64,000 bases of DNA from positions 1-64,000 of the forward strand of contig JAEACG010000009.1 of assembly GCA_016401345.1 (NCBI GenBank), read 5' to 3'. Numbering within the stretch: the first letter of the stretch is position 1; each line of letters begins with the position of its first letter. This document shows positions 2,517 to 61,582 of the stretch, piece after piece. Under the pieces are notes generated by a model. That model ran no database searches. It saw only the letters and a list, made by a program, of their open reading frames with translations, and was not told the origin of the DNA. Position numbers and translations under genes: made by a program. Source of the DNA: Fictibacillus nanhaiensis. Its GTDB lineage: Bacteria > Bacillota > Bacilli > Bacillales > Fictibacillaceae.

Positions 2517-2555
2517 CTATTTTTTCTGGAATTTAATTGAAAGGAGGTGAACAAA

Positions 2556-2999
2556 ATGAAGAATTTTCTTGATAATTTAACTAAAGCTACTAGCATCAAT
2601 TTAGCTAGAACTACAACACGAAGAAAAGCAGTTGCTAAAATGGCTGGCTCTATAATTACTGGTATTATTGGTTTAACCTTTTTTTCAGACAAAGCATTTG
2701 CGGCTTCTTGTGATATGTGTGAACGATGGGGTGTAGGGAGCTGGTGTGGCTGCGGGCCACCTAATGGTGATTATTGTCCTGGATGCCCTTCAACTGTTGG
2801 TGGCAACCCTAGTGGATATAAAAAAAGTTATGCATGGGGTTATAGCTCTACAGGATGTTGGTGCTCAAGTTGTAGTGGTTCAAGAAACTATTACATTTGC
2901 TGTGACTATACTAAAACTGCAAACTCATCAACTCGACAGTATTCCTCAGATTGTGGATGTAAATGGACTTTAACACAGTCTGGTTATTGCGTTCAATAG
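2556..2999 (+). CDS. Tat-type secreted 14-cysteine protein, MADH light-chain-like
   Basis: 147 residues. A long N-region with a twin-arginine motif (TTTRRKAVAKMAG), a hydrophobic stretch and an AFA cleavage site give a Tat-type signal of about 49 residues. The mature part of about 98 residues holds 14 cysteines, including CxxC, CxC and CC pairs. Their spacing (CGC, CPGC, a CC doublet, CGCKW) recalls the methylamine dehydrogenase light chain (MauA), which has six disulfides and a Trp-Trp cofactor. Trp residues are present near the expected places. Start ATG 2556 follows AAGGAGG at 2541-2547. It is probably the substrate of the neighbouring Tat and Mau-like proteins. No heavy chain or MauG is in the window, so the enzymatic role is unproven and it could be a secreted peptide. 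Confidence 0.62.
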   Translation: MKNFLDNLTKATSINLARTTTRRKAVAKMAGSIITGIIGLTFFSDKAFAASCDMCERWGVGSWCGCGPPNGDYCPGCPSTVGGNPSGYKKSYAWGYSSTGCWCSSCSGSRNYYICCDYTKTANSSTRQYSSDCGCKWTLTQSGYCVQ

Positions 3000-3063
3000 T
3001 ATATAAAAAACCATGCACCAAAACAAAAACAAAAACAAAAACACTATGACTCCCCTTAGAATG

Positions 3064-3102
3064 TTAAATGCGATTAGTACATAAATGTCTAGTCGCATTT
3101 AA
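3064..3102 (+). terminator. Hairpin after the mau-like operon
   Basis: The arms TTAAATGCGATTAG (3064-3077) and CTAGTCGCATTTAA (3089-3102) pair over 14 positions with one G-U. It lies 65 bp after the last gene of the operon. The following T-run is weak. A simple CAAAAA repeat precedes it at about 3020-3042. From 3103 to 3353 I see no gene. Confidence 0.5.
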
Positions 3103-3353: not shown

Positions 3354-4001
3354 TTATACATTTCCTTCATCCTCTTTCAAAACGCTGCCATCATACAACA
3401 ATTCCCGTTTCATTAAGTACATTTTTAATTCTTCAGCAAGAGGAATTTCAGGGTTAATAGTGAAACGAACCGTTTTTTTTGCAAGTTCCATTCTTTCTTC
3501 TAGCGTCATTTCAAAAGTCATTTTACGTTGGGCTTCAAAATGCCCCTCAATTTTTATGGATTTTGCTAATACTAAATCAAAGTCAACGTCTGGGGAGCAG
3601 CCATTCACTTTAATGAAATGTACCATTAGGTTTTCCCATTGTTCCTTACTAAGCACTGATTTTGTTCGACCAATATGTTGAAGTGAGTGACAATCTTTAC
3701 AAATGAGTTTTATTTCTATTAACTGGCATACTTTGTTTTGAAAGTCGTAATTCTCCAACTCATGTAAATGAAGGCGTTTTATGTCTTCTTCTTTACCGGG
3801 TACCCAACCACAGATGGAACACTTATTCTCTTGTTGTTCTAACACTGCTGGACGAAGTTTCTTATTCCAAAAATATTGGGCTGCTTTCCTTACAGTGCTA
3901 CCATGAAAAAAAGGTGGTTTAGCTGAGGGTAAAAGTTTAAATTTCGCGAGATCAAGTTCTTCCCACTGCTTCTTACGCAATTGCTTTTTTCGAGATACCA
4001 T
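3354..4001 (-). CDS. HNH-type endonuclease-like protein
   Basis: 215 residues. The central part has CSICGW, LHLHELENYDF and CKDCHSLQHIG. This is a CxxC...H-E...CxxCH arrangement typical of zinc-bearing HNH nucleases, and LHLHE supplies the metal-binding histidines. The N-terminus is basic. AAGGAG lies upstream of the ATG. It sits 26 bp downstream of the DUF3895-like gene on the same strand, probably in one operon. The substrate is unknown, and plasmid HNH proteins range from homing-type to restriction enzymes. Confidence 0.6.
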   Translation of the reverse strand: MVSRKKQLRKKQWEELDLAKFKLLPSAKPPFFHGSTVRKAAQYFWNKKLRPAVLEQQENKCSICGWVPGKEEDIKRLHLHELENYDFQNKVCQLIEIKLICKDCHSLQHIGRTKSVLSKEQWENLMVHFIKVNGCSPDVDFDLVLAKSIKIEGHFEAQRKMTFEMTLEERMELAKKTVRFTINPEIPLAEELKMYLMKRELLYDGSVLKEDEGNV

Positions 4002-4027
4002 ACGTCTTGATGCTCCTTTTTATCATT

Positions 4028-5002
4028 TTAAACTTTGGTTGGACTAGAAGCTCTTTCATAGTAACGGTCTTCAGTGTTTTTTATGCGAAGTAGACTAAGG
4101 TTACCTTGCTTTACTAAAGTTTCTAAGTGCATACATACAGAAGGGTAAATTTTCGGTTTACTAGTGCTGTACCTCTCTCTAGATGCTCCGTGCTCTTTAA
4201 TTAGAAGCTCGCATAGTACCCTGGTGCTACTAATTCCCTGATCCAAATACTTCATAATTACATCCCTATATTCAGCTATAACAAAATCTTTGTGACCAAT
4301 GTCTATGGCAGGTAGTTCTTGGTTCTCAAAAAAAGTTTCTTGCCAAGGAGCCTGTTCCTCATCAACTATATTATTCTTTTTTGATCTCACCTCTACTTCA
4401 ATTTGCCTTCTAAGTAGTTGTTCCTCTTCTTTTGCAGCTATATAAGCAAGTTTTAACCTTTTAACTTGTCTATTAAGCAGTGGAATATAGGCATTCACAT
4501 GCAGCTGGATGTCTGAAGGAAAGATATAGTCTTCAGTAATAAACGGAAGTTCATTTTGAATCTGCCATCCAGTGTCTATTTTATATAGCAGTTCATCCAG
4601 TTCGTAATCGATAAAATTAAAACCGTTAACGATTGATTTGATAAGGTTTGGAGGAATCCCAGTATGCTCTTCAAAATGCGTAATACCAAACCTCCGTACA
4701 GTTCCTGTTCCCTTATGTTTAACGATGTATTGATACCTTAGTGGTCTGCCGCATTCACAAGGAGTTTCAGGGTTCACAAAACCGTTATCTATATAATCCT
4801 CAAGGATCCACTCATCAAGTAACATTTCAATCTCATCACTCGGTACATCTTCAGGAAACACTAATCCTTTATCACGTGCCATATGATTAGCAAAGACTGT
4901 TTTCTTGCTTCTCTTGAGATGCAGCTGTAAAAAGTTTGTTTGAACATCATCTAAGGAACTTAGCACTCTATCCCTTTCTTTAACGGTCAATATAACTGCC
5001 AT
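4028..5002 (-). CDS. DUF3895-like plasmid protein
   Basis: 324 residues, soluble. An early segment has CECGRPLRYQYIVKH and RRFGITHFEEHTGI, suggesting a small metal-binding treble-clef-like region at about residues 82-115. A charged coiled linker follows. The C-terminal region of about 85 residues looks like a winged-helix-type domain (YLDQGISSTRVLCELLIKEH, SVCMHLETLVKQGNL). The layout matches DUF3895 proteins common on Bacillus plasmids. The molecular function is unknown. It is the first gene of a leftward pair with the HNH gene. Confidence 0.5.
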   Translation of the reverse strand: MAVILTVKERDRVLSSLDDVQTNFLQLHLKRSKKTVFANHMARDKGLVFPEDVPSDEIEMLLDEWILEDYIDNGFVNPETPCECGRPLRYQYIVKHKGTGTVRRFGITHFEEHTGIPPNLIKSIVNGFNFIDYELDELLYKIDTGWQIQNELPFITEDYIFPSDIQLHVNAYIPLLNRQVKRLKLAYIAAKEEEQLLRRQIEVEVRSKKNNIVDEEQAPWQETFFENQELPAIDIGHKDFVIAEYRDVIMKYLDQGISSTRVLCELLIKEHGASRERYSTSKPKIYPSVCMHLETLVKQGNLSLLRIKNTEDRYYERASSPTKV

Positions 5003-15856: not shown

Positions 15857-16114
15857 GACCTGACACTCCTTAGCCCGGATTCAGGTTAATTAGCTACACA
15901 CTTATTATACTACCCTTTTGGTATGTATTTCAACCCGAAGTTACAGTTTTTCTATGTTACTTTTTGGTAAAAAATCATACAAAAAACGACAGGGTTTCTA
16001 GTGAGGCGTGATCTTTTTAACTTGTGCACGGACGAGTGCGTTTACAGGTTTCAGAGATTGCGTCTTTTTTGTCGTGTCCTGGTTATTTATCCCGATAATT
16101 CGGGAGGTGAAACA

Positions 16115-17626
16115 ATGGGACAAGTGTATCAAGAAGTTATCGATCTAATCACGCATGATGGGTTAACTCGCTTTAAACCAAAGCAATCAAAAGGGTCTGT
16201 GGCTGAACAAATTCAATCGATGCGTGAAGAGAACAGAAGAAGAAATAAAAAAGGATCTGTGGCCGTGGTCAAAGAGAAGAAACATCTTGCGACAGCTGCT
16301 GGAGTGAAAGGCTTTCCGGTCACATCCAAAGAATCTTTATTTAACATAGCTAATGACGTGTCCCATTGGACACCAAATATATATAATACATTAACTTACA
16401 TAGATGCTCGACGTACATACATAAAAGGCCATGCGGAAGACAATCTCCAACAAGTGAACTGTTTTGTGATTGATTGTGACACGAAAGAGGGTGTTACGGT
16501 CAATAATCTACTGATTCACGGATTGGACGAAAGTATCGGCATGCCAACTTTAATTTTAGAAACCCCAAAAGGGTTCCAGTTGTATTACATACTTGAAGAT
16601 CCTCTGTTCATTTCGAATAAAAATGACTTTAGAGGTTTATTTGTGGCAAAAACCATTTCTAGTAATCTACGAAAATCCTATGCTAGAGGCATCAAAGGCG
16701 TTGACTTAGCATGCAACGACTTTGGTTTTTTCCGTATGCCAAATGAGGAAAACATTCGATGGTTTAACCCAGAGTATGTATATTCCATGAAGCAACTTAT
16801 CAGCTGGTCTTCTAAAGAGTCCGATAATGAAGGTGTGCACCTATATCCGGTGCGCTCTGTAGAGAGCAACTTTAATGCACTCGATCAGGAATGGTTTCAG
16901 GAATTAATACGTTTGACAAACATAAAAGGGGAGAAGGGTTTAATGGGTCGTGATAACGCTATTTTCACGATCGCTTTAGCGTGCTTTTCGGCAGGTAAAA
17001 GTAAAGACGCAGCCTTTGATCTACTCGATGAGTTCAATTCGAACTTGGAGTACCCTGTAACACTTCCACAACTGAAGAAGTCTATAAAAAGTGCGTATTC
17101 TGGTAAATATAAAGGCGCTAGTAAAGACTATGTATCTCATCTTTTAGAAACATGGGGGAGTGGTCTGTCTTCTTTTGGTGTACAAGGATGGCATAAACAC
17201 GCGAAACCTCGTGAAGAGCGTGAACGCTCACATTGGTATGAGTGGGAGCAAGACGTGATCAACTTTATCCAGGAGAATATTACAGCCAACAAACCATTCT
17301 ATGAATGCACGCAGAAAGAGATTTCTGAAGCAATCGGAATCTCTAGATCCATGCTAAATGTTGTATTTAAGAAATCTACGAAACTATACAAAAAGTGCTT
17401 TGGAAAAGGGAGAAACAGCAATTCTGGTTTTACGACAAAAGCACATCTATTACACTATTTAATTCAGCTGAAGCAAACGAAAACAGCTTTTTATAAGAGC
17501 ATTATTAAGGCATTAGATGTTCGCAAGTTCGAGATGGATAGTATCCTATTAGCAGTTGAAAAAGGCTTGAATATCGCCCGCGGAGCACCTCTGGACAAGC
17601 AATTAACCATCCATTCGTCTGCCTAA
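16115..17626 (+). CDS. Primase-type plasmid replication protein
   Basis: 503 residues. An archaeo-eukaryotic-primase-like core is indicated by NTLTYIDARRTY, FVIDCDTK (acid pair D120/D122) and PTLILETPKGFQLYYIL. A PriCT-1-like helical region (GRDNAIFTIALACFSAGKSK) and a C-terminal helix-turn-helix-like region (CTQKEISEAIGISRSMLNVV) follow. This matches primase/initiator Rep proteins of Gram-positive plasmids. I use ATG 16115 because GGGAGGTG (16102-16109) lies directly before it; the upstream in-frame ATG/GTG has none. Nearby repeats and hairpins suggest the origin is at 15400-16000. Confidence 0.75.
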   Translation: MGQVYQEVIDLITHDGLTRFKPKQSKGSVAEQIQSMREENRRRNKKGSVAVVKEKKHLATAAGVKGFPVTSKESLFNIANDVSHWTPNIYNTLTYIDARRTYIKGHAEDNLQQVNCFVIDCDTKEGVTVNNLLIHGLDESIGMPTLILETPKGFQLYYILEDPLFISNKNDFRGLFVAKTISSNLRKSYARGIKGVDLACNDFGFFRMPNEENIRWFNPEYVYSMKQLISWSSKESDNEGVHLYPVRSVESNFNALDQEWFQELIRLTNIKGEKGLMGRDNAIFTIALACFSAGKSKDAAFDLLDEFNSNLEYPVTLPQLKKSIKSAYSGKYKGASKDYVSHLLETWGSGLSSFGVQGWHKHAKPREERERSHWYEWEQDVINFIQENITANKPFYECTQKEISEAIGISRSMLNVVFKKSTKLYKKCFGKGRNSNSGFTTKAHLLHYLIQLKQTKTAFYKSIIKALDVRKFEMDSILLAVEKGLNIARGAPLDKQLTIHSSA

Positions 17627-17924: not shown

Positions 17925-19208
17925 GTGTGTGTACGTCATATTATAGATCAACAAATGGCTATATTAGGTATATCAGTAAGAGGGTTAGCAAGTCGTTGCA
18001 ATTTTAAAGATCGAAAAAAGATTAGTAATTATATTAAAGGTAAATCAGAGTTGAACTTCTATGCCATGATTAAAATTTGCAAAGTACTTTTTAAAGACAA
18101 TCCTTGTGATGTACTTAATCTCTATGCATTAGAGGTCAAACGTTTGGTAAATATAAAAACTGCACTCGAATATTGTTCAATGAATAGACAATTGGATATA
18201 GGAGATAAGTTATTAGATAAATTAAAAGCTATGACTAATCCTAAGAAAAAGAATTATTTAAGCATTATGGAATGGGTTGAAGTATATAGACTTTTATTTG
18301 GAAGAGTGAAAATTAAGCAGTCTGATGGTTCTTTAAAATCAAAAATAGGACCAGAAGAAGTTTTAATTAAGTTAAAAGAGATTAAAGTAAAATCTTCAGA
18401 ACTAAAGATTTTACTTCAATTGCTACAAAGTTATGCTTATCAGGATCAAGAGAAGTATGATTTTTGTTATGCCAGTTTTGATGGTATTACCGATGAAATA
18501 AAGAAACTAAGTTCTTCTGAATATTTTAAAGTTAGTTTGGAAATAAGGTTTAAAGAACTTGCTGGATATATTTGTTTGCATGTATTTGGAGATTTTGAAA
18601 CCTGTAGAAGGTATAGCAAAGATTTGATTGCTAATTCTGAGGTTGAAATAGGTTATAAGGCTACTGCGCATTATAACCTAGGAACGTCTTATATGTTTGA
18701 AAGTTTAGATAAAGCAATCTATCATTTTCACCAATCTTTAGATTTATTAAAAGGGACAACAAGGTCTGATACGCATATAAAGGATTATTTAATTCCATTA
18801 ACTTATATAATACATAATAAATTTTCAAAGGTTAAAACTCAGGATAAATCACTATTGGCGTATTTATATATTAAGACAAATGATTATAAAGAGGGCTTGA
18901 GAATATTAGATAGTTTTATAACTGAGAATGGAGAAACAACAGCGTTTACACAGTTTGTTAATGGATTAGCAACAATGGACATAGAATTACTCTCGGATTC
19001 TATGTCATTATACGAGAATAAACGTGACATGGTATTCATTCACCTTCCAAGAATTTCTTTAAAAGGTTTAGGTTTACCAGAATGTTTAATTGATGATAGA
19101 ATAAAATATAAGATTAAGAGTTTTAAAGGGGTGGATGAATTTGAAAAAAGCAGTTTTCGTAACATTAGTAGCATTAATGGTTTTCGGCACAAACGGGAGT
19201 ACGGTTGA
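17925..19208 (+). CDS. aimR: AimR-family peptide-responsive regulator (arbitrium receptor)
   Basis: 427 residues. The N-terminal helix-turn-helix region (LGISVRGLASRCNFKDRKK, then ISNYIKG) is followed by TPR-like helical repeats. Segments KTALEYCSMNRQLDIGDKLL, ETCRRYSKDLIANSEV, HYNLGTSYMFESLDKAIYHF and DMVFIHLPRISLKGLGLPE match the order and character of phage SPbeta AimR. AimR binds a short peptide made by its neighbour and then loses or changes DNA binding. Start GTG 17925 follows GGAGGAGGG. The family is usually about 380 residues, so this one is slightly longer. An AimP-like ORF overlaps its 3' end. Confidence 0.8.
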   Translation: MCVRHIIDQQMAILGISVRGLASRCNFKDRKKISNYIKGKSELNFYAMIKICKVLFKDNPCDVLNLYALEVKRLVNIKTALEYCSMNRQLDIGDKLLDKLKAMTNPKKKNYLSIMEWVEVYRLLFGRVKIKQSDGSLKSKIGPEEVLIKLKEIKVKSSELKILLQLLQSYAYQDQEKYDFCYASFDGITDEIKKLSSSEYFKVSLEIRFKELAGYICLHVFGDFETCRRYSKDLIANSEVEIGYKATAHYNLGTSYMFESLDKAIYHFHQSLDLLKGTTRSDTHIKDYLIPLTYIIHNKFSKVKTQDKSLLAYLYIKTNDYKEGLRILDSFITENGETTAFTQFVNGLATMDIELLSDSMSLYENKRDMVFIHLPRISLKGLGLPECLIDDRIKYKIKSFKGVDEFEKSSFRNISSINGFRHKREYG

Positions 19209-19260
19209 TTCAAGAGGTTATTTGATAAAAGCTGATCCAATTTGCTGTGGTCAGGGTTAA
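19135..19260 (+). CDS. aimP: AimP-like communication peptide precursor
   Basis: 41 residues: MNLKK, a hydrophobic signal core (AVFVTLVALMVFG) and a short tail ending ADPICCGQG. The ATG has AAAGGGGTGG upstream and lies inside the 3' end of aimR (74-nt overlap), as in arbitrium and Rap-Phr pairs. AimP precursors are secreted and cut to a C-terminal six-residue signal. Here that would be ICCGQG or a nearby peptide. The two adjacent cysteines are unusual for the family. Confidence 0.75.
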   Translation: MNLKKAVFVTLVALMVFGTNGSTVDSRGYLIKADPICCGQG

Positions 19261-19599: not shown

Positions 19600-19974
19600 T
19601 TAGTCGTTATTTTCTTTGTTACTGTTTTTCGGTAGGCGATCTCGAACCACTATTTCAAGAAATTTACGAATGGGTTCTAATTCTTCCTCGTTAAGTGGTC
19701 TACCATTCCAGTGGAGCTTTTCTCTCAAAAACAGTTTTTGTACATCAAGTAGGTCTTGATTGGGTTTTGGATCTTTTTCATCTGTAAGTCCAAGTATGTA
19801 ATCAGTCGATACATTATATAAATTTGCTAGGGATCGAAGCATATCTATAGAGGGTCTTTTTTCTTCTCTTTCGTAGGCGCCATATGTGGTCATACCGATA
19901 TTTAATCTTTCGGCTACTTTGACTAAGGTAAGCTTTCGAGATTTTCGTAAATCTCTTAATCTTTTACCGTACAT
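19600..19974 (-). CDS. XRE-family transcriptional repressor
   Basis: 124 residues. The N-terminal HTH_3 domain is clear: LRDLRKSRKLTLVKVAERLN, then TTYGAYEREEKRPSIDMLRS and LANLYNVSTDYILGLTDE. The C-terminal part is charged. Such SinR/ImmR-like repressors control promoters of mobile elements. AAGGAG precedes the ATG. It converges with the arbitrium locus and diverges from the structured RNA transcript, where it may act; ATATACC half-sites at 20130 and 20211 are candidate operators. Confidence 0.88.
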   Translation of the reverse strand: MYGKRLRDLRKSRKLTLVKVAERLNIGMTTYGAYEREEKRPSIDMLRSLANLYNVSTDYILGLTDEKDPKPNQDLLDVQKLFLREKLHWNGRPLNEEELEPIRKFLEIVVRDRLPKNSNKENND

Positions 19975-20129: not shown

Positions 20130-20217
20130 ATATACCTAGTTAATAATAGCTATAGTATGTCGATGTATAGGTAGTAAGATACAGGAACTAATTCTTACAT
20201 TTTTTGAATAATATACC
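20130..20217. promoter_or_regulatory. ATATACC half-sites in the XRE/RNA intergenic region
   Basis: ATATACCTAGTT starts at 20130 and ATATACCTATTG at 20211. The same half-site starts at 42772 and forms the left arm of the four dyads at 57090-57204. A shared plasmid-encoded regulator would explain this. Confidence 0.35.
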
Positions 20218-20225
20218 TATTGTGT

Positions 20226-20254
20226 TTGACTTACTATTTTGGTTAATGTAGGAT
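20226..20254 (+). promoter_or_regulatory. Promoter of the first structured RNA
   Basis: TTGACT (20226-20231), a 17-bp spacer and TAGGAT (20249-20254). It points into a region without ORFs but with several hairpins. Confidence 0.5.
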
Positions 20255-20259
20255 ACTTC

Positions 20260-20570
20260 CTGAAGGGTCACCTGTTCGCATTTTATGCGAAAGAAAGTAT
20301 AACAATAAAAAAAGTGGGCGGAAACGATAAAGATTTACCAGATCTTTATCATTTCGACCAACTAAAACATTCACAGTGTTTTAGCCAGTCTGCCCACTTC
20401 TCCTGATGCATAATGTTACATTATGCAACATGAATAAGTATACCCTGTTTTTGTTAATTAACAAGGGGAGAAGCATACTTTTACCTTTCCAGTATTTTCC
20501 TGTAAAGGTGTTCATGATGGAGAAGTGGTTTAAAAGAGGCATGGGCTAAAAGTCCGTGCCTCTTTTCTTT
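20260..20570 (+). ncRNA. Candidate structured RNA with three-way junction
   Basis: No ORF. AAGTGGGC (20312-20319) closes on GCCCACTT (20392-20399). Inside, GATAAAGAT/ATCTTTATC (20326-20334/20342-20350) and CTAAAACA/TGTTTTAG (20362-20369/20377-20384) form two hairpins with similar 7-nt loops, TTACCAG and TTCACAG. Upstream is TTCGCAT/ATGCGAA; downstream are a TGCATAATGT/ACATTATGCA palindrome and an intrinsic terminator (20532-20566, stem starting AAAAGAGGCA). Promoter and terminator frame it as one transcript of about 310 nt. It could also be a long leader of the 20603 gene with an attenuator. No known class is recognised. Confidence 0.6.
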
Positions 20571-20602
20571 TAAAAACCATATTCTTAGAGGAGTGATTGG
20601 GA

Positions 20603-20893
20603 ATGCAGTTAGAAATGAAAAACTACAATAGTGCAAAGTACAAGACAGTCTATTTATCAGATTTCTCATTAGGGAAGCTTCAAACATTAGGACATCTCTT
20701 TTTCACCTTTGATAAACAACAATTTGTTAATTTGTATGATGGAACAGCATTTGAAGTGGAATCAAGATCGGTTATCTCTTTAACTGGGCTGTTTTCTCAG
20801 ATTCGCAACGTAAGAAATAAAAAGGGTCATATTATTGCTAAGAGAAAAAATCCACTAACGACCTTGAAAAAAGTAAGATTTCAAAAAAGATAG
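20603..20893 (+). CDS. Small basic protein, unknown
   Basis: 96 residues, strongly basic at the C-terminus (IIAKRKNPLTTLKKVRFQKR). The ATG at 20603 is chosen over TTG 20597 because GAGGAG lies 9 nt before it. No domain is recognised. It lies between the two structured RNA regions, 36 bp after the terminator of the first. Confidence 0.5.
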   Translation: MQLEMKNYNSAKYKTVYLSDFSLGKLQTLGHLFFTFDKQQFVNLYDGTAFEVESRSVISLTGLFSQIRNVRNKKGHIIAKRKNPLTTLKKVRFQKR

Positions 20894-20941
20894 TTATCTA
20901 ATTGTGGGTGCAGCAAGAAATTACATAACAAGATGTGTGTT

Positions 20942-21393
20942 TGGAAGATACGAACAAGTGAAATAAGCGCAAATTGTAATGGTTCTTTGAAAACTAAATA
21001 TAGTTACTGGTTGTGATATATTAACTGCTGTATATCATTACTCCGTTATTCGGAGGACCTAAGGCGAAAAATTCGCGTGGAGCAGTCTAGGTCTTTGATG
21101 TTTTTTACGGCGCAATAATGGGTTTGTTATTGCGTGAAGGTTGTTGGTATGTGCCGAAAACCAACCACATTCAACCACATTGTTTAAACAATGTTAGCTA
21201 GGTTGATAGGGTGCTGTGTGACTCCGCCTGCCTTAACGTCACACCTAATTCATGTATTTGAATTTAGATAAGGCCAATTTTAATTTTTAAAGAACCAAGA
21301 ATATTACTCCCATTTCGATGAAAACCCTTGTCTAAGTGGTAGTGGTATTCTCTGAACAAAAAACAAGTTGCGCTTGCTTGTTCGTATCTTCCA
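20942..21393 (+). ncRNA. Candidate large structured RNA of about 450 nt
   Basis: No ORF. The outer stem is perfect: GGAAGATACGAACAAG (20942-20957) with CTTGTTCGTATCTTCC (21378-21393), followed inward by GCGCAA/TTGCGC. A nested stem TGGTTCTTT (about 20980) pairs with AAAGAACCA (about 21290). Within are hairpins TGATATA/TATATCA, CTCCG/CGGAG, GACCTA/TAGGTC enclosing GCGAA/TTCGC, CGCAATAA/TTATTGCG, GTTGG/CCAAC, an 18-nt palindrome centred on TTTAAA (about 21184) and GTGTGAC/GTCACAC. This nesting is what a large ornate RNA looks like. Its strand is unproven, because stems alone are symmetric. Confidence 0.6.
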
Positions 21394-21476
21394 GATCCAC
21401 ATTGAAAACCCCGACACCTATTATTGGAAAAAATGGTAAACTAAATTCAATCGAAATATAGAAGGGGAGTTAATCT

Positions 21477-22472
21477 ATGAAAAACAGCGTGATTGTAGGA
21501 TTCCTTTCAGCAGCATTAGTTACCGGTGGAGGATTTTATACTTACAGTAATCATGTAGAAGCAGTAGAGTCTAAAAGGGTAGAAGCACAGCAAACCGAAA
21601 CCATCACTGATATACAAAAAAGAGTTGAGAAGCTATATAGCAATTCAAAGAAAGAGTTTTTATCTAAAGGTATTAACTATGACCAGATACAAGTCATTAA
21701 AAGGGATTTAGAGAATCAAGAAGGTAAAGGATTTACTACTGACAATGCTGTAAAGTTGAACACGGCAATCATGGAGCTTAGTGATGCTGAAAACATGCTT
21801 CAGCTTCAAACCTTAGTTCAAGGTCTATTAGATCAAAAAGGTGTATTGGTGGAGAATGCTTCTATCTCTAAAGCGAGTGAGAAAGCTTCAAATCTAAAGG
21901 GAATAAAACCAGCTTTTGCAGATCAACAGCTTAAAGTCATCAATTTAGCTAAACAGCAAGATGTTCAATTGAAAGATAGTACTAAGAAGGTACACAGCCT
22001 ATTCCTTAATCTTCAACAAAAGAAAGTTCGTCCAGAAGTGAATCAGCAACAGTTAGAGGCAATAAAGAAACAAGTATTGCAGATCAAACAGGAGAATACA
22101 AAGAAAGAGTTAGTAAATTTGCTCAATGTTGTGAATCAAGAACTAAAGAAAAAAGAGCAAATTAAAAAGGAAGCTATAGAAACCCAACAAGAACAAAAGC
22201 AATCAAATAAGGATAGTTCCATTAAGCCCACTAAACCAAGAACTAATGAAAGTTCTTCAACTTTAAATGAGTCTAAGAAAGTTCCAGATAATAATAATAA
22301 ATCACATAATAAACCTAGTAATCCAAAATCTAAAAACAATGGTTCTTCTAACAAAGAAGAAAATAAAAATGAGAACATTGACTTACAGCCAGGTGATTCA
22401 ATTGAAATAGAATTAGATCAAAGTGGCGATATAGAAGGCGGAGGAACCTGGGAATCAGGCGGTACATGGTAA
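21477..22472 (+). CDS. Secreted coiled-coil protein
   Basis: 331 residues. An N-terminal signal (MKNSVIVGFLSAALVTGGGF) is followed by a helical, Gln/Lys-rich coiled-coil region to about residue 240, then a low-complexity Ser/Asn/Lys/Pro linker. The acidic tail ends with a short repeat (GGGTWESGGTW). There is no LPxTG anchor. No family is recognised. It precedes the thioester/MucBP-type adhesin and may be a surface or stalk protein. AAGGGGAG precedes the ATG. Confidence 0.6.
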   Translation: MKNSVIVGFLSAALVTGGGFYTYSNHVEAVESKRVEAQQTETITDIQKRVEKLYSNSKKEFLSKGINYDQIQVIKRDLENQEGKGFTTDNAVKLNTAIMELSDAENMLQLQTLVQGLLDQKGVLVENASISKASEKASNLKGIKPAFADQQLKVINLAKQQDVQLKDSTKKVHSLFLNLQQKKVRPEVNQQQLEAIKKQVLQIKQENTKKELVNLLNVVNQELKKKEQIKKEAIETQQEQKQSNKDSSIKPTKPRTNESSSTLNESKKVPDNNNKSHNKPSNPKSKNNGSSNKEENKNENIDLQPGDSIEIELDQSGDIEGGGTWESGGTW

Positions 22473-22480
22473 CAAGATTT

Positions 22481-22520
22481 AAAAAGCATTTTATCTACTC
22501 TTAGATAAAATGCTTTTTTT
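22481..22520 (+). terminator. Intrinsic terminator
   Basis: The 17-bp perfect stem (22481-22497 with 22502-22518) with loop CTCT is followed by T. Confidence 0.9.
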
Positions 22521-30306: not shown

Positions 30307-30315
30307 AACGGAATG

Positions 30316-30338
30316 GGGGACAAGCAGTCCCCTGTTTT
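30316..30338 (+). terminator. Attenuating terminator after the pilin gene
   Basis: GGGGAC (30316-30321), loop AAGCA, GTCCCC (30327-30332), TGTTTTT. Confidence 0.7.
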
Positions 30339-32003: not shown

Positions 32004-35000
32004 ATGAATGGTAAATGGAAGTATATAGTTACATTCATTCTACTTCTTATATGTTTATGTAATACAAATAGAATACAAGCTGCAAGTTATCCAGCGAATG
32101 AAACAGAATTCTATGACTACTTAACAAAAATAGGTAAAGGAGTTATAAATACCTCAGGTCAAAGAGCAAACTATAAGACCTATCAACAGTACAATCTAAT
32201 CGTTTACGGGGATCGACATGGTACACTTCGAGCAGGAAGCTATTGTGGGAATGTAGCTGAATTCCGGGATCTGGGTTATAACGAGTATGGAAATGTAGTA
32301 TCCAATAAGTGTTTTATCAATGATGCTACAGGCTCTAGCCCAGATGAATGGAAATTCATAAAGGTAGATTCCAGTGAATCATCATGGAGAAGGATGGATG
32401 ATTCAGATCAGTTTAACTATACAAACAACGTTCTTCTTCAAGGGAACGGGGCAAAAAACCTAAACGTTCATAAATTAGGTGGTAGACCATACGGAAGAGT
32501 GGAGGTTGCTCCAACTTGGAAATCCGCAGGGTCGATTTACACGGAGCACCAAAATAGCAACGGAAGTGTTTGGTATGCAACCTTTACCGTTCCTCCAATG
32601 GTGGCAGGGAGTGCGATAGAAACGAATATTAGTACGGATAATGATACTTATATTATTTCTAACACAGAAAATAAAGTTGAAGGCCAAATGGCGGTTACAT
32701 CTTCCGCGAAGTTATCCGGTTATGCAAAAAAAGATCACATTACTCGAATTACTTCAGAATTTAAAGGAAAACAAACAACAGATCGCTATACAGATCGGGT
32801 ATGGCACAGACAAGCTATCACGTTCTCAAGAAGTGGTTTTTCAAAACCCGGTACATTTAATGTTGTATTAGAAGCAAAAGGATCTCTAGAAACGAAATTT
32901 GGAGATAAAGATCAAGACGTCGCCACAAAGAAAGTAAAAGTTATTGTTGAACCTTATTTAGAAGCTGAGGTGTTGGCTGAAGCAACTGCGAGTCCTGAAC
33001 GCCAGGTAATCGAAGGAGACAAGGCAACCATCACAGTGAATGTCAAAGGAACAGTAAAAGATGCAGCTGGGGACATTCAGTCATGGACCTTCCTAGCTAA
33101 GAAATCAGAAGCGAACAGTTACATTTCAAGAGTTGTAAATTCGAAGAAGACAAGTGAGAGTGTCAATTTTACGTTTACGGTTCCGAAAGAAATGGTTAAA
33201 AACGGTACCTATAAACAAATTTTTGATACAAAGGTTAGGGTGAATCGAAAGGCTGCGGACAAGGAAGATGCTGATCGAACTCATGCATATGTGATGCCAA
33301 AAGATAGTGAGGAACCGCCTCCTCCTCCACCACCAGAAACAAAACCACCAAGTAGTGGTTGTGATCCAAATGATCCAACGTGTGCGCCCGATCAGGAGTA
33401 TGCGCCACCTGTTGCCAGTGTCTTTGCTCAAGATAGCTATTTCTGGCCAGAAACAGTCGAAGCTCAAAACAATTCATACCACCCAGATCCACGATCTAAG
33501 ATCGTTGAACATGCTTGGTCATTCGATAACCAGCGAGCTGAAAGTGGTACGAAGAAGTTCTCACGGGTCACTGAACCTGAACAACATACAGTTACCATAA
33601 AAGTTTTAGACGATCACACGCTATCCGATGTGGCTTCTAAAACTTTTTCTATTTTACCGACTAAGCCGGTTGCGGACTTTGCGATAGGCGGTCATAAAAA
33701 AGAGAATCGCGCCATCTCGTTAGATGCAAAACCATCGGAAGGAAAAACACCATCGGTTCATGTTGCGCCGATAGATTACACCAAAACAGAGTGGCATATT
33801 GTTCCTTTAACACCAGGTGTTGATCCAAAAGGTATTATGATTCGACCAACAACTAATAAGCAAAAACTAGAGTTCCTTGTACGAGAGGCAGGAGACTATG
33901 AAGCCACTGTAACCGTGACAAACAAGTTTGGCGAAACGTCTGATCCTGTTTCAAAAGAATTCACCGTTTTAGAGGATGCTGCACCTGAAGCAAAGTTTGC
34001 GGTTGATACGAAAACAGCTTATCGAGATGGAACTTCAAAAGAAGCACAAATTGAACTGACAGATTTAAGTACAAGCCCTGATGGTGACACGATTAAAGAA
34101 AGAATCTACTATGTTGAATTTGATTCAAACAATGATGGCTTTGTAGGGACGAAGTTAGATTCGCCTAAGCAAGTGATTGCTTCTGGAAACCTAGCATCTG
34201 TTCTTTATAAAACAAATAAGGTAGGTAACTACCGATTTAGTATGGAGATCAAAGAAGGTTTTGCAGAACCAACATTACCGGAATTTATTTCAGACGAACA
34301 TTATCAAAAGGATCAGTCCAATAATCTACACGGGGCAGGGGATACGGCTTTTTATTTAGAGGACAAAAACTTCAACATTCATGACACCGACAAGGTAGTA
34401 GAAGTCGATAATACACCGCCGGTAGTTGATTTTGGGATGTTTAGACGTAATAAGGTAGATGTTGTTTTAAACTATGCTGGCTTAGATACGGCTACACCGC
34501 AGCATCTCACCGGCAAAGCACCAAACGATGGCCAATACGATCATCAATACTTTACGTATGACGAGGTCTCAAAGAATGCCATGACAGCTTTATCAGGTAA
34601 ATTGCAATCTAATCTTGCGGCAAAGGGAATTGATGCAAAGATTTCCTTTGATAATAAGTACTATAAAGTTCTGGATGCGGACGGAGTAGGAATTAGAAAC
34701 ATCCCTCAATGGGGTTGGACCTATTGGCAAACCTATGACTATCAAAACGTATACGATCAGCCTTCGGGTTACTCTCCTCCGTCTGGATGGGTCATTGATA
34801 GTTCGACTCCGAAGAAACAGACACAAACGATCAAGAGATATGGACAAGGAAGACCTTCGGCAGGAAGTGATTGGCGCTATGTGAGAGAGGTCATCGGACA
34901 GGCATCCGATGCGGTGGAGGTAGGAGCTTCAAGTGTGTCTTACACCGTGTATGCGTCAACACCTTCTCAAGAACCACCAACAGGTGCTTATGAGAATTGG

Positions 35001-37742
35001 CCATATGGATCCCGAAGATGGTACCAGAGTAGTTCAGATTGTTCGAAAACAGATCCTAAAACGAAAGGTTGTATTGAATACAAAACGGTTTGGGGATCAA
35101 GCTCGTGGTGGCTTCGCGCCATCTACCATGATTTTGAGCGAACGGTTTATGACCACAGGTTAAAAAAGACGAACTATCACCAACGATGGGAAATTCAATA
35201 TTATTACGATCAAGGTGTGAATTCGATTGAACAAGTAAACACCACGGATTTTGCATCAGCTTATAACAGTCAAACATACCGGACAGATGCAAAGCGACAC
35301 TATATCCGAATGGATAAAGAAGCATGGAACTGGATGGGAGATACGACAAAAGTAAATATGGTAGCCAATAAGACGAAGACAGAGGATGTTTTTCTTTATA
35401 ACATGGCTGTCGTATCCAATAGAGCTAACGCGGATCAAATCTTCCTGAAGAGCTCAAGAATTGGTAAGTTTCAAAGCTATGATCCGTTTATCTTATCGAA
35501 GAACGTAAGTGATGTTGAGAACTTTTTGATCAATGCTTATGGTCTAAAGCAGAACGGAGAAGAGTTAACGGTATTAATTGGAGATCGGATCGATTACACC
35601 GTAACGTATCAGGATAACGAGAACGACCCAGAGATCAAACGCGAGTGGAAGTTCACGCACGATAAAACAGAGGTAAATGGCCGCGTTATCGATAATCAAG
35701 CTGATACTGAAATCTCTGAAAATAATAAGTGGTTGAATGACCCATTACAACTATCAAAGCCAGGCACATATAAAGTCAACCTTCGCTCATTAGATGATCC
35801 GGTACATTGGAAAGATCAAAGATTTTTTAACTACCGAAAATGGTCGGATGAGGAAGTGCCAAAAGAATATACGGTACATGTTCATCGCCCACCGGTGGCG
35901 AATTTCACCTTTAAGATCGATCCATATAAAGGCTATGAACTCATGCTCGACCCTACTCTTTCTTATGATCCTGACCACCAAGTCAATCGGTCAGATAAAG
36001 GGATTGTAAAACATGAATGGATGTCTTACACCGTTGACGGTGTTACTCATGAAGGGAAGCCGCCAACTCAGTTGCAGCCAAATAAAATTTATGATGTTAC
36101 TCTGCAAGTGGAAGACATCGATGGTGCTTATGCATCTGTAACGAAACGGATCAATACGGGAGATAATGTTCCTCCTGTTGCGGATTTCACACTGCAAGAT
36201 GTTGTAAGTACAAAAACAAAGTTAGACATTCAAGATTTAAGTTATGATCCAAACGGTGATGAGCTAGATAACTATCAAATCACGGTTCGTAAACAAGGGG
36301 AATCCACTATTTTAAAAACGTTTTCTGAATGGCCAACAAGCTTTAACGATATGGGGTTAGGAGAAGGGACGTACGTAATGGGGCTTACCGTGTGGGATGT
36401 TCCGCGAAAAGGTCCTTCCCTACAGTCGGAGATCCATGAAGAACAGGTGAAAGTGATGAACAATAATCCACCATTATCGAGGTTTACACTAGCTCCAAAG
36501 CCGTTAGAGCTTGGAACCGTCGCAACCTACACAGATACAAGTATAGACCCAGATAATCACAATCCGTTGAAGTATTCATGGAAAGTGGAAAAACTTGATT
36601 CGAATGGTGATGTTCTTGAAACATGGGAGACAGGTGTTGCACCTACTGACTTTAGAGATTTTGGTGGAAGTGGCACCTACAGAATTTATCAAACGGTGTG
36701 GGATTCGCCTCCGTTTCCTTTAGAGTCTCTGTCCGATACAACGGTGCAACATATTGAAGTCATCAAAGGGCCTGATCGTCCATTCGCGCTATTCTCTTGG
36801 TATCCTGAGGTAATTTATGCGACAGACACGTTCACGCTAGATCCTATTGATAGTTATGACTTAGACGGAGACATTGTGGGTTACCAGTGGAAAATCCAAG
36901 CGCCAACTGGCACGGTGACTTCTTCAACAGAAATGTTTCCTAAAATAAGTCGTGCAGTTGAAGGTGTCTATACGGTGGAATTGCATGTAACGGATGATGA
37001 TGGACTTAAATCATTAGTGCCGGAGATCCGAAAGATTACAGTTTTACCTAAGCCACCAAATGAGCCACCAGTCGCTACATTTGTTTGGGAACCCTTTGAG
37101 CCGTTCTTAGGAAAGAGCATATCGTTTAACCCTGATTCGTCTTACGATCCATCTAAAGGTGGAAAAATCGTCTCTTGGGCTTGGGAATTCACTTCTGTTG
37201 ATGGAAAGAAGACAACGAGTACTGAAAGGTATCCATCGCTTTTAGCTGCCAGTCCATCCTACCAGGTCAAGTTAACGGTTACGGATAATGAAGGGGCTAC
37301 GGGGAGTACAACCCAACAAGTAAACGTTCATATCGCGAACTTAAAGGCTTCCGTAAAACATACAACAGAATGGCAGAAGTTATGGGAAGAAGAAGGAAAA
37401 GATCCTCATACAAGAGTGTTCCGGGCTGGCGAAAAATTCGTCATCGAGCTAACGTCTACCCCGGCCAATCGTGTTTTTGGAACGGTTGATTTTGGTGGAA
37501 AAGTAGGGAAGGTAGACATCCCTTCAGGAGCCTTTAAATTAATGAAGAATGAGCCGTTTGAGATGCTGTGGAGAGCTGAACTATGGAGAGAAGACTTCAA
37601 GTACATTGAAGAAGGAGAATATCTCTTTAGGTTCAATTCACTACATCCGATCAGCTTACCAAGTGTGACAGCTGAAGATACGTTCATGATTGAAATTGAG
37701 GGGAACGTGTTCGATATACTAGGGTTTCATCGAAACTACTAG
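32004..37742 (+). CDS. Giant secreted PKD-repeat surface protein
   Basis: 1912 residues. Signal peptide at residues 5-26 (VTFILLLICLCN, cut near IQAAS). Around residue 430 a proline run and CDPNDPTCAPDQ form a hinge. Ig/PKD-like domains then repeat: PPVADFTLQDVVSTKTKLDI, PPLSRFTLAPKPLELG, PFALFSWYPEVIYATD, PPVATFVWEPFEPFLG, each followed by a YDP(N/S)xG or YDLDG-type loop and a W-containing strand. No LPxTG motif or membrane anchor lies at the C-terminus. Lying between two Tad motor sets, it is a candidate pilus-tip adhesin or large contact protein. Confidence 0.7.
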   Translation: MNGKWKYIVTFILLLICLCNTNRIQAASYPANETEFYDYLTKIGKGVINTSGQRANYKTYQQYNLIVYGDRHGTLRAGSYCGNVAEFRDLGYNEYGNVVSNKCFINDATGSSPDEWKFIKVDSSESSWRRMDDSDQFNYTNNVLLQGNGAKNLNVHKLGGRPYGRVEVAPTWKSAGSIYTEHQNSNGSVWYATFTVPPMVAGSAIETNISTDNDTYIISNTENKVEGQMAVTSSAKLSGYAKKDHITRITSEFKGKQTTDRYTDRVWHRQAITFSRSGFSKPGTFNVVLEAKGSLETKFGDKDQDVATKKVKVIVEPYLEAEVLAEATASPERQVIEGDKATITVNVKGTVKDAAGDIQSWTFLAKKSEANSYISRVVNSKKTSESVNFTFTVPKEMVKNGTYKQIFDTKVRVNRKAADKEDADRTHAYVMPKDSEEPPPPPPPETKPPSSGCDPNDPTCAPDQEYAPPVASVFAQDSYFWPETVEAQNNSYHPDPRSKIVEHAWSFDNQRAESGTKKFSRVTEPEQHTVTIKVLDDHTLSDVASKTFSILPTKPVADFAIGGHKKENRAISLDAKPSEGKTPSVHVAPIDYTKTEWHIVPLTPGVDPKGIMIRPTTNKQKLEFLVREAGDYEATVTVTNKFGETSDPVSKEFTVLEDAAPEAKFAVDTKTAYRDGTSKEAQIELTDLSTSPDGDTIKERIYYVEFDSNNDGFVGTKLDSPKQVIASGNLASVLYKTNKVGNYRFSMEIKEGFAEPTLPEFISDEHYQKDQSNNLHGAGDTAFYLEDKNFNIHDTDKVVEVDNTPPVVDFGMFRRNKVDVVLNYAGLDTATPQHLTGKAPNDGQYDHQYFTYDEVSKNAMTALSGKLQSNLAAKGIDAKISFDNKYYKVLDADGVGIRNIPQWGWTYWQTYDYQNVYDQPSGYSPPSGWVIDSSTPKKQTQTIKRYGQGRPSAGSDWRYVREVIGQASDAVEVGASSVSYTVYASTPSQEPPTGAYENWPYGSRRWYQSSSDCSKTDPKTKGCIEYKTVWGSSSWWLRAIYHDFERTVYDHRLKKTNYHQRWEIQYYYDQGVNSIEQVNTTDFASAYNSQTYRTDAKRHYIRMDKEAWNWMGDTTKVNMVANKTKTEDVFLYNMAVVSNRANADQIFLKSSRIGKFQSYDPFILSKNVSDVENFLINAYGLKQNGEELTVLIGDRIDYTVTYQDNENDPEIKREWKFTHDKTEVNGRVIDNQADTEISENNKWLNDPLQLSKPGTYKVNLRSLDDPVHWKDQRFFNYRKWSDEEVPKEYTVHVHRPPVANFTFKIDPYKGYELMLDPTLSYDPDHQVNRSDKGIVKHEWMSYTVDGVTHEGKPPTQLQPNKIYDVTLQVEDIDGAYASVTKRINTGDNVPPVADFTLQDVVSTKTKLDIQDLSYDPNGDELDNYQITVRKQGESTILKTFSEWPTSFNDMGLGEGTYVMGLTVWDVPRKGPSLQSEIHEEQVKVMNNNPPLSRFTLAPKPLELGTVATYTDTSIDPDNHNPLKYSWKVEKLDSNGDVLETWETGVAPTDFRDFGGSGTYRIYQTVWDSPPFPLESLSDTTVQHIEVIKGPDRPFALFSWYPEVIYATDTFTLDPIDSYDLDGDIVGYQWKIQAPTGTVTSSTEMFPKISRAVEGVYTVELHVTDDDGLKSLVPEIRKITVLPKPPNEPPVATFVWEPFEPFLGKSISFNPDSSYDPSKGGKIVSWAWEFTSVDGKKTTSTERYPSLLAASPSYQVKLTVTDNEGATGSTTQQVNVHIANLKASVKHTTEWQKLWEEEGKDPHTRVFRAGEKFVIELTSTPANRVFGTVDFGGKVGKVDIPSGAFKLMKNEPFEMLWRAELWREDFKYIEEGEYLFRFNSLHPISLPSVTAEDTFMIEIEGNVFDILGFHRNY

Positions 37743-37762: not shown

Positions 37763-37794
37763 ATGACCCAGTTATATAACTGGGTCATATTTTT
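37763..37794 (+). terminator. Perfect palindromic terminator
   Basis: 13-nt arms (37763-37775 and 37776-37788, starting ATGACCCAG) with T-run. It separates the giant gene from the second Tad module, although a small gene with its own GGAGG follows closely. Confidence 0.85.
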
Positions 37795-41176: not shown

Positions 41177-41539
41177 ATGATGGAAGGTTCTGTTATGGAG
41201 ATGGGAAAACTCTACATTTCCTTATTCATCATCTTTACTTTGTTTTCGCTGGCCATGTTTTTTGCATCGATTAACCACGCCAATGAATATAAGCAGTATG
41301 TAAATTACCAGATTGAGAGATATGGTGGGTTGAATGGAACAGCAATAACAAAGATCAACGAATATAACCATGACCATTACGATGGGAAGTTCGAGGTTGA
41401 AAGTCCTCAAATGGATCAAAAGTTTCAATACGGAGAACAAATAACTTATACCATTAAAACGAAGTATGAATTTTTCTTCTTACCGATTCTTAGTCGGGAT
41501 ATACAGGTGAAAGGCGCAGCGTTATCCAATATTAGATAG
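41177..41539 (+). CDS. DUF4320/TadE-like pseudopilin
   Basis: 120 residues. An N-terminal helix (LYISLFIIFTLFSLAMFFA) is followed by a small extracellular domain that is Tyr-rich and ends ILSRDIQVKGAALSNIR. This resembles the DUF4320 proteins of Gram-positive Tad operons. GGGAGGTG precedes the ATG. Confidence 0.55.
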   Translation: MMEGSVMEMGKLYISLFIIFTLFSLAMFFASINHANEYKQYVNYQIERYGGLNGTAITKINEYNHDHYDGKFEVESPQMDQKFQYGEQITYTIKTKYEFFFLPILSRDIQVKGAALSNIR

Positions 41540-41576
41540 CGCTTTTTTGTTGTCAAAAATTAAAAAATGTTTGCTT

Positions 41577-41803: not shown

Positions 41804-41826
41804 GGCTGGGAATACCCAGCCCTTTC
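41804..41826 (+). terminator. Terminator after the second pilin gene
   Basis: GGCTGGG (41804-41810), loop AATA, CCCAGCC (41815-41821), then CTTTCATT. Confidence 0.75.
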
Positions 41827-47007: not shown

Positions 47008-47036
47008 GAGGATGGCTAAAAGCTATCCTCTTATTT
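47008..47036 (+). terminator. Intrinsic terminator
   Basis: GAGGATGGCT, AAA, AGCTATCCTC (one G-U pair), then TTATTTCTT. Confidence 0.75.
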
Positions 47037-49423: not shown

Positions 49424-49441
49424 GGAAGGGGCGTGGGGAAT

Positions 49442-58628: not shown

Positions 58629-59855
58629 ATGGGAAGTCCAGGTGTCGTGCTTGTATCAAAATATGTATCGGGGAAGTCAAAAAAGTTTACGTCTTATGTG
58701 AACTATATTAATCGAAATGAAGCCACTCGCTCACAGAAATTTGAAACGTATAATGTGAATCAGCTAGACGGTTACAACCAATACATGGAGAACCCAGAGA
58801 AGAGTAATGGGATCTTCACCAAACATAAAGATAACCTCACTCAACGAGAGAAGGATCAGTTAAAACTTATTTTCAAAACCGCCCAGGAGAATGACTCAGT
58901 TATGTGGCAGGATGTGATTAGTTTTGATAATGCATGGCTAGAGAATAATGGGTTTTATAAAGAAGAAACCGGATGGATTAATGAGAGTGCCATCCAACAA
59001 GCTGTACGAAAAGGAATGGATGTTGTTCTTCAACAAGAGAGCATGGAGGAGAGTGCAGTTTGGGCTGCCTCCCTCCATTTTAATACGGACAACATACACG
59101 TTCATGTTGCTATCGTGGAACCACACCCAACGAAACCTTACGGTATTTATACAGATAAGAAGACGGGAGAAACCTATGAGGCTAGACGTGGTAATCGTAA
59201 AAAAACAACGTTGGATAAATTCAAAAGCAAAGTAGCCAACTCTCTATTGGATCGTGACAAGGAGTTAACAAAAATATCGGAACTGATCCACGATCGAATC
59301 GCTCCTAAAGGATACAAATTTAGAACGAAGCAAGATCGTTTCTTATTGAAGAAATACAACGAAGTGTACACAAAACTTCCTTCAGATATGAGCTTGTGGA
59401 AATACAATAACAATGCCATTAAGGAAGTAAGACCGGAGATCGACACGCTGATTACGATGTATATCGAGAAGTATCACCAAGCCGATTATAAAGAGCTCGA
59501 TCAAGCGTTAAAAGAGGAGATGAACTTTCGAAAGGGCGTGTATGGAGACGGTGAAATTGAGGTCAAACGGTACGAGGAATACCGGGAGAATAAACATCAT
59601 GAACTATACACGAAACTTGGGAATGCCATGTTAAAGGAAATGAAAGAGATCCGCATGGAGGAGAGAGCTTCCTTTCAAAACCGTTCTCTTGATGGGAAAG
59701 CTCCTCAGTCCTTCCAACCTGAGTACCAGGGCCGATTAGAGAATTCAGCTCTGTATCAAATAAAGCGAGCGCTTGATGTCGATTATCAAAGCTTAAAGAA
59801 CAAACGTAAGTATCAACGACTACAAAAAGAAATGGAATATGAACAAGGAAGGTGA
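58629..59855 (+). CDS. MOBL/MobP2-type relaxase
   Basis: 408 residues. VLVSKYVSGKSKKFTSYVNY (N-terminal catalytic Tyr candidate) is followed by the metal-binding motif HFNTDNIHVHVAIVEPHP (HxH plus upstream H). This fits MOBL-type relaxases described for Bacillus plasmid pLS20. The relaxase nicks oriT and covalently leads the DNA strand to the recipient. The C-terminal part is helical. The ATG has AAGGTGAT upstream and overlaps nothing. It follows the accessory genes, as usual. Confidence 0.85.
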   Translation: MGSPGVVLVSKYVSGKSKKFTSYVNYINRNEATRSQKFETYNVNQLDGYNQYMENPEKSNGIFTKHKDNLTQREKDQLKLIFKTAQENDSVMWQDVISFDNAWLENNGFYKEETGWINESAIQQAVRKGMDVVLQQESMEESAVWAASLHFNTDNIHVHVAIVEPHPTKPYGIYTDKKTGETYEARRGNRKKTTLDKFKSKVANSLLDRDKELTKISELIHDRIAPKGYKFRTKQDRFLLKKYNEVYTKLPSDMSLWKYNNNAIKEVRPEIDTLITMYIEKYHQADYKELDQALKEEMNFRKGVYGDGEIEVKRYEEYRENKHHELYTKLGNAMLKEMKEIRMEERASFQNRSLDGKAPQSFQPEYQGRLENSALYQIKRALDVDYQSLKNKRKYQRLQKEMEYEQGR

Positions 59856-61402: not shown

Positions 61403-61582
61403 TAATTTCATCTATTTATTTAAGTGTAAAACACTTAAAATTCGTTACAATCTGCCGATAAACATGATAGGTAGCAGTTTTATCCGACCAGAAGAATTTA
61501 TCTTGCGTTAGATTATTTCTTCGTCCCTTTCATGTACCTTTAGAGCGTCATCCATTTTTGGATGGTGCTCTTTATATGTTTG

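Follow-up and report, generated by a model that had tools for sequence, protein, structure and literature searches.

The window analyzed here comprises the first 64,000 nucleotides (nt) of Fictibacillus nanhaiensis contig JAEACG010000009.1, which measures 68,724 nt and lacks a terminal overlap. A PriCT_1 protein encoded at 16001-17626 would fit a plasmid replicon, the alternative being an integrated element. Next comes a gene for an AimR-family (arbitrium-type) receptor (17925-19208; NCBIfam match above the cut-off), near the place of Rap in pLS20 relatives; a small open reading frame (ORF) overlapping it (19135-19260; 41 amino acids [aa], hydrophobic start) may encode the receptor's signal peptide. 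Beyond a divergent helix-turn-helix gene (19600-19974; NCBIfam matches below the cut-off), a consensus scan that returned fewer promoter-like sites than in shuffles offers TTGACT-17-TAGGAT (20226-20254, + strand; 9/12) as a weak candidate for the operon promoter. The leader at 20308-20404 shows a three-way-junction fold (z = −7.84); on the − strand this element is followed by a T run and may end transcription toward the helix-turn-helix gene.

The ConAn1-family gene (20603-20893, + strand) encodes 96 aa from ATG at 20603 and is listed as 98 aa from TTG at 20597; ORF 20597-20893 matches Pfam pXO2-34 above the cut-off, and PF17362 is found at 2.3e-11. Family membership was checked by leaving sequences out: with the window withheld from the profile, 20597-20893 is recovered at 1.1e-21 (529 ORFs); with pLS20 withheld, the pLS20 gene 2551-3082 is recovered at 4.1e-14 (442 ORFs); and the next matches are 0.3 or worse. 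The common core of the family is IRNVR..G.IIAKRK. ConAn1 is ORF28 of pLS20 (PMC11730352), and in the record of pBatNRS213 the gene orthologous to the 172-aa one of pLS20 is annotated as "Antiterminator protein ConAn1." The AlphaFold model is confident (pLDDT 89.5) and shows a small fold of strands and two helices; a search for a known fold gave no match with E ≤ 0.001 in the PDB or in BFVD (viral). Several records of Lacticaseibacillus paracasei plasmids tag a ConAn1-like ORF as APH(2'')-Ie (PLSDB resistance prediction), which, by sequence family, looks like a false label.

Between 21477 and 61300, the main ORFs lie on the + strand and make up a putative operon of roughly 40 kb (>30 kb). To judge from its sequence, it is a conjugation operon of the pLS20 type with a T4SS, predicted to be read as a single transcript. 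Its products include a VirD4-type coupling protein (47063-49423; NF045973, 8.9e-105), a pLS20_p028-family conjugation membrane protein (49433-51445; NF045890, 3.7e-109), and a MobP2/MobL relaxase (58629-59855; NF041498, 2.2e-115; PF18555, 1.7e-110), with all three NF matches above the cut-off, as well as a thioester-domain protein, T2SSE/TadA-type ATPases, a lysozyme/NlpC protein, and a VirB4-like ATPase whose match is below the cut-off. Also within the operon is a 1912-aa protein with PKD domains (32004-37742), perhaps a surface protein. The first gene (21477-22472; 331 aa) takes the place of the pLS20 gene at 3466-4638; tblastn recovers it in 11 plasmid records, 10 from Listeria and one from Carnobacterium, and its PF18449 match is below the cut-off.

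Between the ConAn1 gene and the 21477 gene lies the segment 20942-21393, which the original prediction described as a large, nested, gene-free, structured RNA. The structure is real, and the description holds: the minimum free energy (MFE) of 20935-21400 is −165 kcal/mol, compared to −107.3 (standard deviation, 5.6) for 100 dinucleotide shuffles, none of which equaled it (z = −10.25), while no ORF of ≥60 aa overlaps 20894-21476, and none of the seven ORFs of 25 to 41 aa that do overlap it is taken as a gene. Stems of 16, 6, and 9 bp were all found where the prediction had placed them. The outer closing stem pairs GGAAGATACGAACAAG (20943-20958) perfectly with CTTGTTCGTATCTTCC (21377-21392) and extends to 23 pairs when G-U and flanking pairs are counted; the inner stem pairs GCGCAA (20967-20972) with TTGCGC (21368-21373); and in the nested stem, TGGTTCTTT (20980-20988) can pair with AAAGAACCA (21289-21297). 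The predicted fold further contains internal hairpins CTCCG-TTATT-CGGAG (21041-21055) and GCGCAATAAT...GTTATTGCGT (21110-21135) and a 3' hairpin, AGAATATTACT...AGTGGTATTCT (21298-21351); a signature hairpin, AAGGTT-GTTGGT-ATGTGCCGAAA-ACCAAC-CA (21137-21167), scores 37.5 bits with the hairpin model R1, described below.

The segment is single copy in the 4.28-Mb genome, where its sole match is itself. Searches of plasmids, phages, and same-family genomes gave only short DNA matches and no long relative; the blastn matches include no pLS20 record, and a short Listeria match turned out to span the boxA discussed below. OLE, GOLLD, ROOL, and HEARO are all represented in Rfam; with zero matches at the gathering score in the whole 64-kb window, these and other Rfam large RNAs were rejected. 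Under permissive settings, Rfam yielded 13 matches in 20150-21500; each fell well below its gathering score and lay outside 20942-21393. The remark that no known class was recognized holds for Rfam, but the location of the RNA, the gene beside it, and the operon agree with what has been published on the conAn2 RNA of conjugative elements.

ConAn1 genes for comparison came from plasmids, from viral contigs (four stretches, two of them real), and from a pattern scan of genome contigs (12 stretches, six of them real as judged by ORFs). In 398 genomes, PF17362 matched nothing but the window; we therefore turned to a wider ConAn1 profile, A2, which matched 25 of 397 genomes of the order, the host's own included. 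After dropping copies of the window (L001, L002, L037, L053, and L070) and near-duplicates, and keeping nonredundant Priestia-type loci, 39 regions behind ConAn1 genes were counted. Gene order is similar in pLS20, Bacillus plasmids, Listeria, and Carnobacterium; the genes that follow the RNA (surface proteins, small hypotheticals) vary between plasmids, with ConAn1 and the RNA remaining. Two ConAn1 genes (L105 and L106) are on multimegabase contigs about 2.5 kb before VirD4-type genes, where they probably sit in integrated conjugative elements; a boxA-like motif accompanies the one in L106 (= L096) and is absent from L105 (= L079). Four Priestia-type homologues (L040, L064, L071, and L073) have no boxA within 200 nt, and in L040 the next annotated genes are divergent.

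The start of the nested stem had been noted as resembling sequences that flank rRNA genes, possibly by coincidence. Coincidence is not borne out: on sequence grounds, TTCTTTGAAAACT at 20983-20995 is to be read as the boxA of rRNA (rrn) operons, and it recurs at the same place in many relatives. It is the sole exact copy in the window, where copies with two mismatches are no commoner than expected by chance, and the longer element TGGTTCTTTGAAAACTAAATA (20980-21000, + strand) agrees at 18 of 20 positions with the boxA in the rrn spacer of a genome from the same genus. In that genome (L026), the motif occupies 1502-1514, with 16S ending at 1409 and 23S beginning at 1603; in L025, a genome of the same family, it is found ahead of 16S. 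The boxA of Bacillus rrn operons binds NusB-S10.

A boxA pattern drawn from the relatives occurs within 170 nt of the ConAn1 stop in 21 of 39 regions, compared to 0.13 predicted from shuffles and to none of 39 in a control stretch 450 to 620 nt further on; it is absent from the other 18, pLS20 included. Since that pattern was drawn after the relatives had been inspected, we repeated the test using the same-genus rrn boxA itself as a 20-nt query (300 shuffles per region). This query was found at P ≤ 0.01 in 21 of 39 regions, and at ≥14 of 20 identical positions in 26 of 39, compared to 3 of 38 in the control stretch; identity reaches 18/20 in five regions (the window, pLIS48, two Carnobacterium plasmids, and an Enterococcus). 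Among the regions without it are pLS20, those of the Priestia type, and several from elements identified in whole genomes. Within the pattern, it is the 3' part, TTGAAAACTNNATA, that recurs, next to a more variable 5' part. One further exact boxA was seen in a same-family genome, in a gene-free stretch (L005, 1425-1805; fold z = −3.96) directly before a gene of the DUF961 family, which we take to be that of Tn916 Orf22/23 and ICEBs1 HelP; rRNA is absent nearby, as are ConAn1 and the R1 hairpin, and this stretch is perhaps another conjugation-linked antiterminator RNA.

In predicted folds of 25 boxA regions (21 found by the pattern and four by eye: L045, L046, L050, and L055), boxA is paired about as often as the rest, so we dropped a conserved role for a stem covering it; in the window, boxA is almost fully paired, and the 9-bp nested stem overlying it is not conserved. 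The partner at 21289-21297 is made about 300 nt later in the transcript, and Nus factors could therefore bind boxA first.

The closing stem fared differently. We sought a helix with one arm before boxA and the other 150 to 520 nt after it, with 40 shuffles per region; the best closing helix was better than all 40 in 19 of the 25 regions, and the test failed in L034, L054, L058, L061, L075, and L089. Arm sequences are unrelated across lineages: the compensation proposed as a check in the original prediction is thus seen as closing stems wholly changed in sequence yet still paired. The signature hairpin (RGGTT-stem-GCC-NAAA-stem) recurs in part of the 44 regions scanned. Among 20 chosen copies, all six pairs changed on both sides, and covariation was 0.853, compared to 0.181 when shuffled and ≤0.175 when slid; 95% of cells pair, a percentage partly built in because the copies were selected for having the stem. 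Model R1, trained on these 20 rows (the window among them), was run on 39 sources (of 103 loci collected). It found all 11 sources with training rows and, of the 28 without, five at E < 0.01 (L069, L047, L079, L046, and L094); the L069 match is a near copy of a training row, and that in L079 lies about 700 nt behind ConAn1. R1 misses pLS20 and Listeria pLIS48. Across the host genome it scores highest at 21137-21167 (6.1e-5), the runner-up reaching 18.3 bits (E = 3.3); the single-sequence MFE of the window pairs the hairpin bases in another register. The hairpin occurs three times in Bacillus massiliglaciei (L067, 3593-3747) and twice in Pontibacillus (L058, 7066-7178).

Terminators are pertinent to any antitermination. 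A strong intrinsic terminator (20533-20565, + strand; hairpin of −23.0 kcal/mol, then TCTTTTAA) precedes the ConAn1 gene; 13 of the 40 loci with enough sequence, the window included, have a terminator-like hairpin there, compared to none of 40 on the opposite strand. The others are L032, L036 (pLS20), L038, L039, L042, L045, L046, L049, L092, L093, L099, and L100; such a hairpin might serve for attenuation or to filter out transcription reading in from upstream. Across 20.4 to 61.6 kb, the operon strand carries 13 terminator-like hairpins: one upstream of ConAn1, six intergenic or at gene ends between 22.4 and 47.1 kb, five intragenic, and one at 61542-61571. The other strand carries 12 (five intergenic), and hence there is no strand excess. 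Those between genes or at gene ends on the + strand are at 22483-22516 (on paper working for both strands), 30314-30334, 37763-37788 (both strands), 41518-41543 (at a gene end), 41804-41821, and 47008-47030. A looser scan of both strands gave 28 in the 35- to 54-kb stretch, compared to 12.4 in shuffles, and no excess in the 16- to 35-kb stretch (12 compared to 10.5). As support for antitermination, the terminator content is weak.

PMC8955417 places conAn at the start of such conjugation operons, with the conAn2 RNA mediating antitermination and ConAn1 contributing processivity, and reports more than 20 terminators in the pLS20 conjugation operon and many in conAn operons. Structure, position, partner gene, the recurring closing stem, and the recurrence of boxA are established in our material, with a covarying hairpin in part of the cases, and we consider it very probable that 20942-21393 is a conAn2-type processive antiterminator RNA of the conjugation operon; our confidence was lowered slightly because the strand control shows no terminator excess. 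Also counting against it, the pLS20 gap has no boxA core, R1 reaches few sources outside its training set and does not reach pLS20, boxA is predicted to be paired almost throughout in the window, and the active canT fragment of Tn916 seems to cut into boxA. The RNA would be made as an early part of the conjugation transcript, right after the ConAn1 gene; the nascent RNA would close through its long outer stem, display boxA and the signature hairpin, and stay tied to the RNA polymerase that made it. By analogy to pLS20, the RNA would act in cis, and ConAn1 would be the processivity factor with which polymerase reads through terminators in the ~40-kb operon; polymerases started by accident inside the operon, lacking the RNA, would stop at internal terminators. 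That boxA recruits NusB-S10 and other Nus factors, as suggested by rRNA and phage systems, has in our estimate somewhat less than an even chance.

The same RNA could instead use its boxA-like motif to contact ConAn1 or RNA polymerase rather than NusB-S10, the likeness to rrn reflecting convergence or a shared polymerase-contact motif; we judge this possible, if a little doubtful. It would accommodate the pLS20 gap, which has no boxA core although pLS20 conAn2 is reported active (PMC8955417), the active Tn916 canT fragment, which seems to lack the first boxA bases (see below), and the recurrence of the 3' part with a more variable 5' part. It accords less well with 18/20 identity to the rrn boxA in five of 39 regions, and in the rrn and phage systems boxA has NusB-S10 as its known partner (PMC12691694).

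Three other explanations depart further from the conAn2-type reading. The size, nesting, and fold strength would suit a free-standing ornate RNA in the manner of OLE, GOLLD, ROOL, or HEARO, a separate molecule in the operon leader by chance. We consider this quite improbable: there is no Rfam match at the gathering score, and the + strand between the RNA and 21477 has no terminator-like hairpin. Similar regions also occur behind ConAn1, but they were sought there and so are not independent; the sole finding free of such bias is the one R1 match that the host genome gave. A cis-regulatory leader controlling translation or attenuation of the 21477 gene, with no processive antitermination, would be in keeping with a gene-free RNA directly preceding that gene and with the lack of the clear terminator excess that antitermination needs; the following genes, however, differ between plasmids while ConAn1 and the RNA stay, and such a leader seems to us no less improbable. 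A DNA-level inverted repeat (oriT or recombination site) without RNA function would explain a long, perfect repeat, but in relatives the succession of stem arm, boxA, hairpin, and second stem arm is maintained with arms unrelated in sequence, and boxA is a transcript motif, leaving this scarcely credible.

Taking the conAn2-type reading further, antiterminator RNAs of Gram-positive conjugative elements (many of conAn2 type, the canT of some Tn916-like elements, and that in the DUF961 context) may be built around the rrn boxA and use host NusB-S10, NusA, and NusG for long transfer operons, with the large RNA and ConAn1 adding resistance to intrinsic terminators and pLS20 being a derived case that lost the boxA core; we hold this tentatively, at a shade under even chances. 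How the nascent conAn2 or canT RNA carries polymerase past many terminators over tens of kilobases has not been worked out, as far as the partial texts of PMC8955417 and PMC11658703 go, and the word boxA does not occur in those texts. Among the literature matches listed, no title links boxA to conAn or canT, and a search for boxA together with pLS20 returned nothing. A boxA at a fixed place provides a concrete hypothesis, host Nus factors, whose use could help explain the differences in host range reported for conAn components (PMC8955417). It is also a searchable signature for RNAs where Rfam finds nothing.

Among known systems, Nus-factor antitermination of rrn operons has the boxA sequence in common with the window RNA; to our knowledge, rrn leaders have neither ConAn1 nor such a large RNA. 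EAR is represented in Rfam, and the put RNA of HK022 is far smaller. Both EAR (of eps operons) and put are RNA-based processive antiterminators (PMC8955417), as the conAn2-type reading would have it for the window RNA. No protein partner is reported for them, and the window RNA has no Rfam match.

The canT of Tn916 is a cis-acting antiterminator RNA between orf8 and xis and, like the window RNA, is about 450 nt long and part of a conjugative element (PMC11658703); it is not known to have a partner protein, whereas ConAn1 lies beside the window RNA. The boxA pattern occurs in the place of canT in three of 17 Tn916-type xis loci (L113, L114, and L115), on the xis strand and about 350 to 390 nt before the xis match; L113 and L114 are closely related (2156 of 3168 12-mers in common). 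None of the 17 loci yielded the R1 hairpin (best E, 2). If the 76-aa ORF 798-1028 of L114 is orf8, the S3 position (+283) carries the ATA given in the publication, and the published canT coordinates therefore map onto this locus. The active fragment of 452 bp (+126 to +577; PMC11658703) then begins within boxA and leaves out the first four bases, evidence against a strict requirement for an intact boxA.

The closest counterpart is conAn itself, which is already published; what is new is this member, for which Rfam has no match. In pLS20, a tetratricopeptide protein gene, a divergent helix-turn-helix gene, the 172-aa gene, a 383-nt gap, and a 390-aa gene follow in that order, and from this gene order and PMC8955417 we infer that the gap is conAn2. 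An Rfam search of seven other loci turned up one match only, to BsrG in pLS20, which is unrelated. A full boxA and the R1 hairpin are present in the window RNA, whereas the pLS20 gap lacks the boxA core and shows, by eye, a hairpin variant with a longer loop in a similar architecture. Features that the window has in common with the conAn system are a ConAn1-family gene, a large structured RNA next to it, and a conjugation operon of more than 30 kb downstream.
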